NCBI RefSeq assembly: GCF_011801125.1
Contig: NZ_CP046171.1
Coordinates: forward strand, 4,960,001-5,024,000
Source of the DNA: Nocardia brasiliensis
GTDB taxonomy: Bacteria; Actinomycetota; Actinomycetes; Mycobacteriales; Mycobacteriaceae
Direction: 5' to 3'
DNA length: 64,000 nucleotides
This document shows positions 46,339 through 51,510 of this stretch, one piece after another (the first letter of the stretch is position 1; each line of letters starts with the position of its first letter). A program made the position numbers and the translations under genes. Under the pieces are notes generated by a model, which was not told the origin of the DNA, did not search any database, and saw only the letters and a program-made list of their open reading frames with translations.

Positions 46339-47133
46339 TCAGAAGTTGTCGTCGATGTACTCGGCGGCATGCGTGGTCCACAGCACGTCGGTGCCCGGCA
46401 GCAGGTGGCTCGAGTACAGCACGTGCTCCCCCTCCGGCCACGGCGTCAGGTACCCGATCACCCCGTACATCGCGACGACGTAGCGAGTCAGGTTCGTCAG
46501 GGGATCACGCATCAGCCAGGCCAGCAGTTCCGCGAAGATCAGCGGGCCGACGTCACCGATCCGCGCGCCCTCGAGGAACGAGAACGGCGAGATGCCGACG
46601 TCGATGACGCGCAGCGGGGAATCCGCGGGCGCGGCGGTGATGATGTCGCCAGGATTGGCGTATTCGCGGATGGCAACGCCCGCGGGCCAGGGCCCCCGTT
46701 GACCGTGCAGGCCGAAGGTGTTCGACGGGCACAGCCCGCCCACCGATTCGCCCGCCTTGCGCAGCGGATTGGCGATGTTCACCGCGAAGGCGATCTCCAG
46801 CGGTGAGCCGTCCGCGTTCTTGTACTCGCCCGAGCGGACTCCATCGAGTATCCGGCTCGCACATATTCCGCCGAGCGAAAAGCTCAGCAACCCACACACA
46901 TTCGGTGAATCCTGGATCGCCTTGACGCCCGCTGCCGTGCCGAGGCGCACCGAGGTGTCCAGCGAAGGACCCCAGACATCCGGCGACGGACCGACCGAGG
47001 CGGGCCAGTCCGGTTCGAACGCGGAAAATCGCGTCGGGTCGAGCAGGTCGGTGACGGCTCGCAGCATGCCCGCCGGCTTTCCGTCGGAATTACGCGGTTC
47101 ACCGGTGCCGCGCAGGGTAATGATGTCGATCAT
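46339..47133 (-). CDS. Lysin B/cutinase-like alpha/beta hydrolase (phage-type esterase)
   Basis: 264 residues. The nucleophile elbow is GLLSFSLGGICASRI (about residue 85), with an upstream ITLRGTGEPRNSD block, a likely catalytic Asp in REYANPGDIITA and a C-terminal His (SSHLLPGTDV or TTHAAEYID). This pattern resembles mycobacteriophage Lysin B mycolyl-arabinogalactan esterases and actinobacterial cutinase-like proteins. No signal peptide or membrane segment is seen, which favours a phage-derived or cytosolic enzyme. No other phage genes are adjacent. GAGGAG site before the ATG. Alternative: a secreted cutinase with a missed start. Confidence 0.7.
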   Translation of the reverse strand: MIDIITLRGTGEPRNSDGKPAGMLRAVTDLLDPTRFSAFEPDWPASVGPSPDVWGPSLDTSVRLGTAAGVKAIQDSPNVCGLLSFSLGGICASRILDGVRSGEYKNADGSPLEIAFAVNIANPLRKAGESVGGLCPSNTFGLHGQRGPWPAGVAIREYANPGDIITAAPADSPLRVIDVGISPFSFLEGARIGDVGPLIFAELLAWLMRDPLTNLTRYVVAMYGVIGYLTPWPEGEHVLYSSHLLPGTDVLWTTHAAEYIDDNF

Positions 47134-49019: not shown

Positions 49020-49278
49020 AATCGCACGTACGAATGCACAGCCGCCAATCCGGGGCTATGCGATGGATATCTTGCCATTCGGAAGTAGCTCATTGATTGC
49101 GCCGGAACTATCGGTGCCCTGCCGAAAAACTTTCGGCCCTAGCGCATCCGGGATCGGAATCCGGTTTGCCACCGGCGGTTAAATCTGTCGATCCGAACCG
49201 GCGAAGGGCCTTCGCACGTTATGATCGGGCACACGCTCGGGGGTCGTGGCAAATCGCGAGCAGATCGGAGAAATGGCT

Positions 49279-49743
49279 ATGACCGACGCACTCCGCCTCC
49301 ACGGAACCGCGCCGAAGAGTGACCGCGTGCCTCCACTGCACGGATTGTTGGTGGCGGAGTCGGACAGAGATATCAGCGTTCGCGTGGCCGAGGGCACGTG
49401 GACGTTTCGCCGTTCCGATGTGCTGCGGGTGCTCGATTCGGCCGTGCCGGAAGGACTTCGCGCCGAACAGGGCGCGCGGCCGGTCCTGGTCGACATCCGG
49501 GTCGGGGCCACCGCGGATTTCACCCGCCGCCTGCGCATCGACGTGCTCGACCGACCGATGACGATGCAGCAGGCACCGTCGGCCGCACTCGGTGACGATC
49601 AGCTGCGCGCGCTCACCGAATCCTGGGCCGACCGCATGAATCTGGTCGACCTGCCCGGCACCAACGGCGCCACTTTCACCTACTGCCAGACCAAGTCGCT
49701 CGCCACCAGTGACGACGGTATCAACTGCGACAGTCTCGACTGA
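49279..49743 (+). CDS. Candidate graspetide (ATP-grasp RiPP) precursor
   Basis: 154 residues, no known family. The N-terminal about 100 residues form a folded-looking domain (HGLLVAESDRDISVRVAEGT ... PVLVDIRVGATADFTRRLRI) and the C-terminal 28 residues are a polar tail (GTNGATFTYCQTKSLATSDD plus eight) with five Thr, three Ser, one Lys, four Asp and two Cys: side chains that ATP-grasp ligases join into ester/amide macrocycles. It lies 11 bp upstream of an MvdC/MvdD-type ATP-grasp gene. The ATG at 49279 (GGAG upstream) was chosen; ATG at 49273 is alternative. The precursor role is inferred from context and tail composition; a protein partner of the ligase is possible. Confidence 0.6.
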   Translation: MTDALRLHGTAPKSDRVPPLHGLLVAESDRDISVRVAEGTWTFRRSDVLRVLDSAVPEGLRAEQGARPVLVDIRVGATADFTRRLRIDVLDRPMTMQQAPSAALGDDQLRALTESWADRMNLVDLPGTNGATFTYCQTKSLATSDDGINCDSLD

Positions 49744-49754
49744 GCGGCGCATTC

Positions 49755-50717
49755 ATGGCGGGACGCCGGACGGGTTCAGTCCTCATCGTGTCCGAATCCG
49801 ACGATCTGCACGCCACCGCCATGGCGGCGACGCTGCGAGAATTCCACGGGCTCAGTGCGATTCAGCTCGACCTGCGTGACTTTCCGCGGGAATCGGGCAG
49901 CTTCCGGCTGGACCGCTACGGTACGGCCCGATCGGTCTCGCACCTGATCGGCCTCGACGACGTGCGCTCGGTGTGGTGGCGCAGGCCGCACCCGACCCAG
50001 CCGCCCGCCGGAGTCCGCGTCTCCGACAACGACTTCCGCCAGGCCGAATGCGACGGCTTCATCCAGGGACTGCTGTGGTCCATTCCGGCGCACTGGGTCA
50101 ACGATCCCGGGGCCGACCGCACCGCCGCCCGCAAGATCGTCCAGTTGGAGACCGCGCTGCGGGCCGGCTTCGCGGTGCCAGAGACGCTGATCACCAACGA
50201 CCCGGACGAGGCCCGCAGCTTCGCCGAATCCCGGCCCGGCCCAGTCGTTTACAAGCGCACCGGGACCAGCCGCGCCGAATTCGCGGAGACCAGGATCATC
50301 ACCGAGCAGGACTACGACCGGCTGACCGGCATCCGCGCGGCGCCGACCACCTTCCAGGATTACGTCGACGCCGAGTGCGATCTGCGGGTGGTCTGGGTGG
50401 ACGGCGTCGAGTGGACGGTGCGCATCGACTCGCAGGCCGGCGTGGGCCGCGTCGATTCCCGGCTGGACACCTCGGTCGATTTCGTGCCGGAACATCTGCC
50501 CGCCTCGGTCAGCAAATCACTCGCGACCCTGATGGGCGCGCTGGGATTGTCGTTCGGCGTCTTGGACATTCGACTCGGCCTCGACGGCGAGTACTACTTC
50601 CTCGAGGTCAATCCGCAGGGACAGTTCGCCTACCTGGAGATCAAGACCGGGCTGCCGATCTTCCGCAGCCTCGCCAACCTGCTCGTCGACGGGGACGGCG
50701 CCGTCGAGGGCTACTGA
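49755..50717 (+). CDS. MvdC/MvdD-family ATP-grasp peptide ligase
   Basis: 320-residue ATP-grasp enzyme of the microviridin/graspetide ligase family, which installs side-chain ester or amide crosslinks in a ribosomal peptide. Pre-ATP-grasp domain with SVLIVSESDDLHATAMAATL and the diagnostic VWWRRPHPTQ motif; ATP-binding Lys in GPVVYKRTGTS; metal-binding residues in LDIRLGLDGEYYFLEVNPQG. It directly follows the precursor candidate on the same strand. No second ligase, methyltransferase, acetyltransferase or transporter is adjacent, so a minimal cluster. Its seven last bases overlap a convergent reductase remnant. Confidence 0.85.
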   Translation: MAGRRTGSVLIVSESDDLHATAMAATLREFHGLSAIQLDLRDFPRESGSFRLDRYGTARSVSHLIGLDDVRSVWWRRPHPTQPPAGVRVSDNDFRQAECDGFIQGLLWSIPAHWVNDPGADRTAARKIVQLETALRAGFAVPETLITNDPDEARSFAESRPGPVVYKRTGTSRAEFAETRIITEQDYDRLTGIRAAPTTFQDYVDAECDLRVVWVDGVEWTVRIDSQAGVGRVDSRLDTSVDFVPEHLPASVSKSLATLMGALGLSFGVLDIRLGLDGEYYFLEVNPQGQFAYLEIKTGLPIFRSLANLLVDGDGAVEGY

Positions 50718-51060
50718 CGCCGATACGTGCGCCGCACGACACCGGATTTCGGAAACGGGTGCGCGACGACCAGCCGCAGCCGCCGTGCGGGCACCCCGTC
50801 GAGCGGCCGCCGCCCGGCGCCGAGCAATACCGGAAACACCGGCAGCCGAAGCTCATCCACCACGTCCCGGCGCAGGAACTCCTGCGCGGTGCCGAGCCAG
50901 GCGCACACCACGATCGGCTCGCTGTCCGCGCGCCGCGGCTCGGTGATCTCCGTCGTGCGGTCCCCCCGCCGTTCCGGCTGCCGGGCAGCGCGACCTCGGG
51001 GCAGACAAGACCACGAGTTCAGGCAGCCCGTGCACCAGTGGTGCCGACCATCGTGTCACT
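50711..51060 (-). pseudogene. Decayed dihydrofolate-reductase-family (RibD_C) gene remnant
   Basis: The C-terminal frame (50711-about 50960) reads EPIVVCAWLGTAQEFLRR and continues DVVDELRLPVFPVLLGAGRR, the typical end of the DHFR-like RibD_C family. Upstream, similarity continues in another frame (LPELVVLSAP, then PEVALPGSRNG), pointing to a frameshift, and no N-terminal NADPH-binding region is found. The stop overlaps the ATP-grasp gene end by seven bases. Probably non-functional. Confidence 0.5.
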
Positions 51061-51225
51061 GGATCCTGTTGCGTCCGGCCCATACTGGGCCGACAGCTCG
51101 CAGGACACAGGTCCGTAGACCTGGACGCGCACGGTACGCAGTAGTCCGGCCAGGCAGCCGTCCGCCGTGCCGTCGACCTCGATCCGGTCGCGCGCGCCGT
51201 CGCGGCCTGCCGCGCGCGAACTCAC
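51019..51225 (-). CDS. Small ORF of uncertain reality
   Basis: 68 residues from a GTG, containing RDRIEVDGTADGCLAGLLRT and VQVYGPVSCELSAQYGPDA; reasonable codon bias but no recognised family. It may be a fragment related to the adjacent decayed gene or a real small protein. Included with low confidence to account for the stretch between 51060 and 51276. Confidence 0.25.
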   Translation of the reverse strand: MSSRAAGRDGARDRIEVDGTADGCLAGLLRTVRVQVYGPVSCELSAQYGPDATGSSDTMVGTTGARAA

Positions 51226-51276
51226 CGGCCCCGGCGAAAAGCGTTCCGCCGAAACCGGTTCGAGCCGGGTGCGGTG

Positions 51277-51510
51277 CTACTGACTCTTGCGGCGGTTGGC
51301 GCCGCCGCGGCTGCGGAGTTGCACATGCGACTCCACCAGTACGTTGTGGATGAAGCCGTAGGAGCGACCGGTTGCTCGCGCCAGCGAGCGGATGCTCGCA
51401 CCTGCTTCGTACTGCTTCTTCAACTGGGTCTGTAGGCGGTCACGGGACTTCCCCGTGACGCGTGTTCCCTTACCCAGGGTGGCTTTGACTTGTGCGGGCC
51501 TGTCGCTCAT
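51277..51510 (-). CDS. Small helix-turn-helix DNA-binding protein (Rv1473A-like)
   Basis: 77-residue basic protein with one HTH (QLKKQYEAGASIRSLARATG, then RSYGFIHNVLVESHVQLRSR) of the resolvase/Hin-like helix type. Both ends are Lys/Arg-rich. Its position beside the ABC-F gene matches M. tuberculosis Rv1473A, annotated as a possible transcriptional regulator. It lies 81 bp downstream of the ABC-F stop on the same strand. Targets unknown. Confidence 0.8.
   Translation of the reverse strand: MSDRPAQVKATLGKGTRVTGKSRDRLQTQLKKQYEAGASIRSLARATGRSYGFIHNVLVESHVQLRSRGGANRRKSQ

Follow-up and report, generated by a model that had tools for sequence, protein, structure and literature searches.

What do two adjacent genes of Nocardia brasiliensis make, one encoding a protein of 154 residues and the other an ATP-grasp ligase, and is the first protein the substrate of the second? 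The pair lies in a 64,000-nucleotide stretch of DNA (the window) from a genome of 7.95 Mb in one contig. A preliminary description had read it as a minimal graspetide locus with an unusually long precursor, in which the ligase would join side chains of the precursor's C-terminal tail. Both open reading frames were found where that description placed them, as were the VWWRRP and FLEVNPQGQ motifs of the ligase and the tail of the precursor, GATFTYCQTKSLATSDDGINCDSLD. GGAG is found 8 nt upstream of the precursor gene, a GATCGGAG-like motif precedes the precursor start in the Nocardia loci listed, and a gap of 11 nt separates the two genes (Table 1). The pair is very probably a graspetide-type system of two genes, fixed in one genus and with a folded domain as its leader, for which ester crosslinks are predicted.

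Table 1. Positions of the two genes and their proposed parts in the window.
Feature	Position	Strand	Basis
Putative precursor/substrate protein, 154 aa (ATG at 49279, stop codon ends at 49743)	49279..49743	+	ORF; relatives in 136/150 Nocardia genomes
Predicted folded beta-barrel domain, residues 14-96; proposed recognition (leader) domain	49318..49566	+	AlphaFold2
Conserved tail, residues 131-154, proposed core	49669..49740	+	Counts in 162 and 195 unique sequences
Proposed core groups: hydroxyls T132, T134, T138; carboxylates D146, D151, D154	49669..49740	+	
ATP-grasp ligase, 320 aa, MvdC/MvdD/SAV_5884-like (ATG at 49755, stop codon ends at 50717)	49755..50717	+	TIGR04187, PDB relatives, 146/150 Nocardia genomes
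Ribosome-binding region (GGAG) of the precursor gene	49266..49278	+	Sequence; GATCGGAG-like motif in Nocardia loci listed

The ligase belongs to the MvdC/MvdD family (PF21068/TIGR04184, TIGR04185, TIGR04187), despite scores under the curated cut-offs: TIGR04187 matched with 216.8 bits (E 3.9e-64; cut-off 350), TIGR04185 with E 3.9e-47, TIGR04184 with E 2.5e-40 and PF21068 with E 0.0025. PF21068 is precomputed for several of its Nocardia orthologues. Among solved chains, the ligase matched 5ig8 and 5ig9 (ATP grasp ligase), 9bou, 7m4s (AMdnB), 7mgv (CdnC) and 7drm with E values from 3e-29 to 2e-12, and its alignment to solved microviridin-type ligases and 9bou covers almost the full length. The catalytic-site residues are those of graspetide-type ligases, with K127, K167, R211, D234, R236, D271, E284 and N286 each kept in 40 or more of the 42 comparison ligases (49 were found, of which the 5 most divergent were left out, as were 2 by length) and in all 88 precursor-paired ligases.

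In a tree of 72 ligases, a long stem leads to a single clade (100/100) that unites those from Nocardia, Phytomonospora and a Mycobacterium MAG. A separate clade holds 29 SAV_5884-type ligases from the TIGR04187 search, which have short precursors of the usual kind. The sister of the Nocardia-type clade (99/88) comprises L104, L105 and the long-branched L109. An astacin (M12A) metalloprotease gene lies directly before the ligase gene in L104 (2475-3695, minus strand) and L105 (2474-3787, minus strand), from genomes G706 and G639; the two astacins match PF01400 (E 1.6e-48 and 5.4e-48) and have tails with KDP and TxKE-type repeats. Each may be a large folded substrate that carries repeats in its tail, which gives only a hint that this branch of ligases may act on folded proteins. 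In L112 (genome G649), two similar short peptides (MDALGFDLA...) stand in tandem ahead of a distant ATP-grasp ligase, likely a multi-precursor graspetide-type locus.

The precursor matched no Pfam or NCBIfam family above cut-off. The AlphaFold2 model of the whole protein (mean pLDDT 70.5) has six strands in residues 20-82, mostly at high confidence, followed by a helix (residues 106-119) and by a tail of low confidence; residues 14-96 alone again gave six strands, with a mean pLDDT of 89.5 and a pTM of 0.74. The precursor is thus confidently predicted to consist of a small beta-barrel domain, a linker and a tail. Since the domain had no convincing fold match among solved structures, we describe it as a small beta-barrel and claim no family. 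The leader motif Phhx(1,2)h, reported for about half of graspetide precursors (PMC8939145), was matched loosely (Ala counted as hydrophobic) in the first 30 residues of 66 of the 195 precursors and is absent from the protein of the window.

The two genes travel together. Of 150 Nocardia genomes, 136 yielded the precursor and 146 the ligase, and the co-occurrence in Nocardia on which the preliminary description hung its proposal was borne out, with the ligase accompanying the precursor in 136/136 genomes and no precursor found without a ligase. Ten genomes carry the ligase alone, and both genes are missing in four (G053, G088, G109, G139), the G109 assembly being just 88% complete. These counts record matches that occur together in a genome; 88 loci were read for adjacency and active site, which represent 76 of the 136 genomes and 12 named records and include 40 loci chosen non-randomly from lower-scoring or odd cases. 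The gap between precursor and ligase is -1 to 30 nt in 88/88 loci. There is one ligase match per genome, with second, distant ATP-grasp matches only in G066 and G136.

A protein search with the precursor gave 102 homologues, all of whose named sources are Nocardia except for one Streptomyces gardneri record; the closest named relative, with 95% identity, is from Nocardia brasiliensis. The profile search yielded 138 relatives, 120 of which were listed. By the same approach 7 were detected among 298 genomes of the order (at most 13 candidates scored per genome) and 4 among 394 of the class (at most 9 per genome), all of them in Nocardia. With 102 homologues and 136 of 150 Nocardia genomes, this distribution is beyond chance. 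A search with the Phytomonospora ligase led to 12 loci, ten of them from Nocardia and the others from Phytomonospora endophytica and a Mycobacterium MAG. In these last two, the ligase is directly preceded by a related precursor (34% and 40% identity, respectively), in which the loop of the tail has diverged and the stem residues are kept.

Little else is shared among these loci. The other ten window genes tested have no counterparts in the Phytomonospora or Mycobacterium MAG loci, and Pfam analysis of ten neighbouring ORFs of those two loci revealed no common partner. Because no third gene is common to the Nocardia, Phytomonospora and Mycobacterium MAG loci, the conserved unit is the gene pair, and the word minimal was well chosen as far as the window genes tested are concerned. 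In the longer Nocardia loci, the pair is flanked by an aconitase-TetR block on one side and by an HTH/ABC-F pair on the other; MarR, cupin and thioesterase genes occur variably in its surroundings. In the window itself, Pfam identified a thioesterase, a cupin, TetR, HTH, a RibD_C-like stretch and one unmatched protein, while MarR and ABC-F were recognised by eye; no methyltransferase, such as the PIMT-type enzyme of the graspimiditides (group 13), was found among these neighbours. The RibD_C-like frame (50711-51300, minus strand) lies at the 3' end of the ligase gene; its part at 50711-50908 matches PF01872 (E 4.6e-7), and the frame looks broken because the longer stretch contains an internal stop. 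A 263-aa protein (46339-47133, minus strand), with no Pfam match at E 0.01, has relatives near the pair in L002, L003, L005, L032 and L047.

The tail is where the pattern of a graspetide core was sought. Among 162 unique sequences, residue 132 is Thr in 152, Ser in 5 and Ala in 5, residue 134 is Thr in 153 and Ser in 9, and Asp is found at positions 146, 151 and 154 in 160, 162 and 161 sequences, respectively. T138 is Thr in all 142 sequences that have the segment, 20 of the 162 being without residues 136-144. The most conserved part is D151-S152-x-D154, whose C-terminal position is almost fixed. Positions 141-143 are almost free, C136 is Cys in 107/142 and C150 in 152/162, and of 142 sequences, 88 keep Lys139 and 46 have Arg in its place. 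Thus, hydroxyls and aspartates are held while the loop, the cysteines and Lys139 drift, which is the pattern that ester stems predict. A lactam at Lys139 is unlikely given its exchange for Arg. At the invariant sites, codons vary (88 loci, with L114 misplaced by the aligner): S152 is AGT in 45 and AGC in 41, and T138 is ACC in 69, ACT in 12 and ACG in 4.

When 40 more loci were added, giving 195 unique precursors, 170 had the arrangement [T/S]xxxT-loop-Dx4Dx2D, 21 the shorter T.T..D....D..D, and four deviated, each at one acid site: P0069 (Tyr last), P0097 and P0099 (Arg/His at 146, Asp at 147) and L122 (Glu at 146). L122 is the only sequence of the 195 with Glu for a stem Asp, and Thr/Ser exchange occurs. 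The precursor adjacent to the ligase therefore has C-terminal Thr/Ser and Asp/Glu in conserved spacing, and a conserved Thr/Ser/Asp pattern is what the proposal of the preliminary description required. Other details of that description fared less well: with Lys139 so often Arg and no TxKxPSD present, the tail is not microviridin-like in its spacing, and neither of the two cysteines to which it drew attention is essential. Nor is the tail without a core class, as it fits the published TxxxT...D...D arrangement; the core signatures of Makarova et al. 2022 include TxxxTx(6-10)Dx(1-4)D and TxxxTxxDxxxxDD (PMC8939145).

The loop has 7 residues in 166 sequences, including L142 (3 by the shortest-register count); it is shorter in P0094 (3) and the Mycobacterium MAG (4) and longer in Phytomonospora (8 or 12, according to the register) and L114 (22). 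The precursor of L114 (genome G008), whose own tail has TRCQT, keeps both halves of the stem around this enlarged loop. The Mycobacterium MAG precursor has two additional residues beyond the last Asp, and Cys-free natural tails exist, for example in L060. In 46 sequences, pN/pS was 0.44 for the tail, 0.43 for the barrel, 0.64 for the N-terminus and 0.55 for the linker. The expectation that the whole tail would have a lower pN/pS than the barrel was rejected, and as the two values are equal, the constraint on the tail is residue-specific.

From these data we infer how the barrel, the ester chemistry and the ring topology might fit together. The ligase would recognise the folded N-terminal beta-barrel of the 154-aa protein and, at the expense of ATP, would activate the side-chain carboxylates of D146, D151 and possibly D154 as acyl phosphates, a step well established for ATP-grasp ligases. 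Esters would then form between these carboxylates and the hydroxyl groups on T138, T134 and possibly T132. The predicted connectivity is T138-D146 and T134-D151, with T132-D154 as a possible third ester, so that the product would contain two, perhaps three, nested omega-esters in a stem capped by a loop that varies in sequence and in length.

The same enzyme could instead add an amino acid or an amine to the C-terminal carboxylate of the tail or to an Asp side chain, in the manner of RimK, with the invariant DSLD as the recognition end. The strong conservation of D151-S152-x-D154 and its almost fixed terminal position would suit such a reaction, and the ligase does have a weak match to rimK_fam (E 2e-5, under cut-off). 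However, addition would leave the invariant T138, the restriction of residue 134 to Thr or Ser and the T-x3-T spacing unexplained, the Mycobacterium MAG protein continues for two residues after its last Asp, and the nearest characterised relatives by sequence are graspetide ligases; we regard this alternative as unlikely.

The ten genomes with a ligase and no precursor offer a view of the enzyme once its putative substrate is gone. Compared with 48 precursor-paired and 42 comparison ligases, the orphans have lost N286 in 10/10 cases (Asp in 9, Glu in 1), D234 in 9/10 and K127 in 8/10 (Arg in 6, Ala, His), with further losses at D271 (three), K167 (two), R211 (one) and E284 (one). N286, D234 and K127 are kept in 88/88 precursor-paired ligases, and in the 40 added later, partly odd cases, all eleven sites examined are kept. 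Among the ligases of the protein search, N286 is lost in 11/120; P0123 has R236H with the remaining sites, including N286, intact. Absence of the precursor is thus accompanied by loss of the catalytic site in a gene that is nevertheless retained. Judged from their sequences, these natural knockouts tie the chemistry of the ligase to the 154-aa precursor.

In 8/10 orphan loci, inspection by eye still shows the upstream GATCGGAG-like region, and a tiny ORF (17 to 35 aa among those read) follows it at the position of the precursor; L046 and L049 do not show this. The tiny ORF of G102 has 33 aa and is still rich in Thr, Ser and Asp. No second copy of the precursor was found in the 14 precursor-less genomes, where two weak matches had E values of 0.12 and 0.37. 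In 9/10 orphan ligases (L045-L054, of which L045 differs), the EVNPQGQFAY segment has been remodelled in a similar way, towards EVDP-G-(R/H/E)-FAH. In the orphan ligase of L047 (genome G028), short TPADFAD/G-like repeats are inserted in frame where the two halves of the ATP-grasp domain meet.

In a tree built without the active-site columns, the orphans fall into three groups on long branches. Three independent losses of the precursor, as in the best tree, is a weakened proposal: well-supported branches force two changes, and a single loss (one orphan clade) is not rejected (AU p 0.103). The orphans are not plain pseudogenes either, as their frames are uninterrupted and pN/pS between closely related orphans is 0.13-0.21; precursor-paired ligases at similar divergence have a median of about 0.10 and a maximum of 0.17-0.20. 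At larger distances, orphan pairs reach 0.35-0.75 and the maxima of paired ligases are 0.44-0.53. We therefore describe the orphans as having an altered active site in a retained gene; within close pairs they still show purifying selection, and the ligase may have a role beyond the precursor.

Retention of the ligase without the 154-aa protein would also be expected if that protein were a partner or adaptor, its tail a docking or inhibitory peptide, and the real substrate encoded elsewhere; partner-protein-dependent synthesis of a graspetide is known for rosaritide (MirC; PMC13097080). Such an arrangement is unlikely, since a loop of 3 to 22 residues with Thr and Asp kept fits ring closure better than docking, and loss of catalytic residues in the orphans would be unexpected had a separate substrate persisted. 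That the tail merely binds metal or forms a disulfide through its two Cys and its Asp, beside an unrelated ligase gene, is highly improbable: C150 is well kept, but C136 is not, Cys-free tails occur, and no precursor was found without the ligase in 136 genomes or in the two loci outside the genus.

Returning to the graspetide reading, several points were counted against it, namely the ligase scores under curated cut-offs and its clade apart from the 29 SAV_5884-type ligases, the lack of Phhx(1,2)h in the window's protein, a tail pN/pS not under that of the barrel, the four deviants among 195 and R236H in P0123. The system nonetheless works like a graspetide system in those defining features that could be tested.

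As to the product, no peptidase or transporter was found among the common neighbours of the loci, and a C39 peptidase was not found in 29 of the 30 Nocardia genomes searched, including that of the window; the product may for this reason be the protein itself in crosslinked form, not a peptide cut from it. A peptide freed by a general protease is the other candidate. C39-type double-glycine cleavage at G130-A131 (G in 135/162, A in 151/162) is disfavoured, the C39 peptidase that usually cuts at double-glycine sites being found in just 1/30 genomes; the motif itself may still be of this type. That the tail hardly varies across the genus, at one chromosomal site, suggests a conserved function and not the product of an arms race. 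Somewhat doubtfully, and as one joint proposal, we suggest that the ester-crosslinked tail is kept on the beta-barrel protein as a genus-core modification with a conserved cellular function in Nocardia, and is not a secreted natural product; that the precursor-less ligases were convergently remodelled into a retained pseudo-enzyme with another role; and that the astacin-adjacent sister ligases hint at a wider graspetide-type branch acting on the tails of folded proteins.

Literature searches found no published description of the Nocardia pair, and it may already be listed in supplements, above all that of PMC13097080, whose main text does not contain the word Nocardia. One paper contains both graspetide and Nocardia, in passages that are unrelated in the text available. 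Graspetides are usually seen as sporadic, diversifying natural products, and one near-invariant, genus-wide version argues for a physiological role. The ten precursor-less genomes are ready-made controls for which ligase residues go once the substrate is gone, and their altered ligases raise the question of what role remains. As a recognition module, a folded leader domain would differ from the short leaders described so far, and the pair is attractive for tests of peptide cyclisation because its natural loops span 3 to 22 residues.

Microviridins have ester-forming Thr and Asp near the C-terminus, within a TxKxPSD core, and are made with paired ligases and an acetyltransferase. The Nocardia ligase is homologous to theirs (MdnB/MdnC, acting with MdnA), but the Nocardia system has [T/S]xxxT...Dx4Dx2D and one ligase match per genome, without TxKxPSD, a conserved Lys, a second ligase or an acetyltransferase. 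Its precursor also lacks the PFFARFL leader segment (motif in PMC8939145). The candidate filter of Makarova et al. 2022 asked for most cluster members to be 150 aa or shorter (PMC8939145), which puts the 154-aa precursor family at its edge.

The unusually long precursor and the locus of just ligase and precursor stressed in the preliminary description are both real, though each has precedents in PMC13097080. In that paper (Carter et al. 2026), groups 27, 28 and 35 likewise have loci that consist of synthetase and precursor only. Corallotide (group 15, Corallococcus; PMC13097080) resembles the Nocardia system in its unusually large precursor (His6-CorA, about 22 kDa), its restriction to one genus and its conserved locus architecture; it combines five KxxxD lactam motifs with an oxygenase and a beta-lactamase-like protein, whereas the Nocardia pair has one Thr/Asp tail and no third common gene. 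These large precursors, genus-restricted loci and synthetase-plus-precursor groups reduce the surprise of the Nocardia pair.

Fuscimiditide (ThfA/ThfB, Thermobifida; graspimiditides, group 13) is likewise actinobacterial, with one ATP-grasp ligase, a stem-loop of Thr-x3-Thr and two Asp, and a long leader (67 aa, for a core of 22 aa). Its nested esters are an inner Thr7-Asp18 and an outer Thr3-Asp22 (PMC12291112). The Nocardia system differs in its predicted folded beta-barrel leader, its Asp spacing of x4 with a third Asp after x2, a locus without an adjacent PIMT methyltransferase, a tail near-invariant across the genus, and a ligase clade apart from the SAV_5884-type set (ThfB is not knowingly in our tree). 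According to the published account, ThfB tolerates Thr to Ser and large changes of the loop and does not tolerate Asp to Glu (PMC12291112). All three of these tendencies, Ser for Thr, hardly any Glu for Asp (one sequence of 195) and an elastic loop, are seen in the natural variation of the Nocardia precursors.
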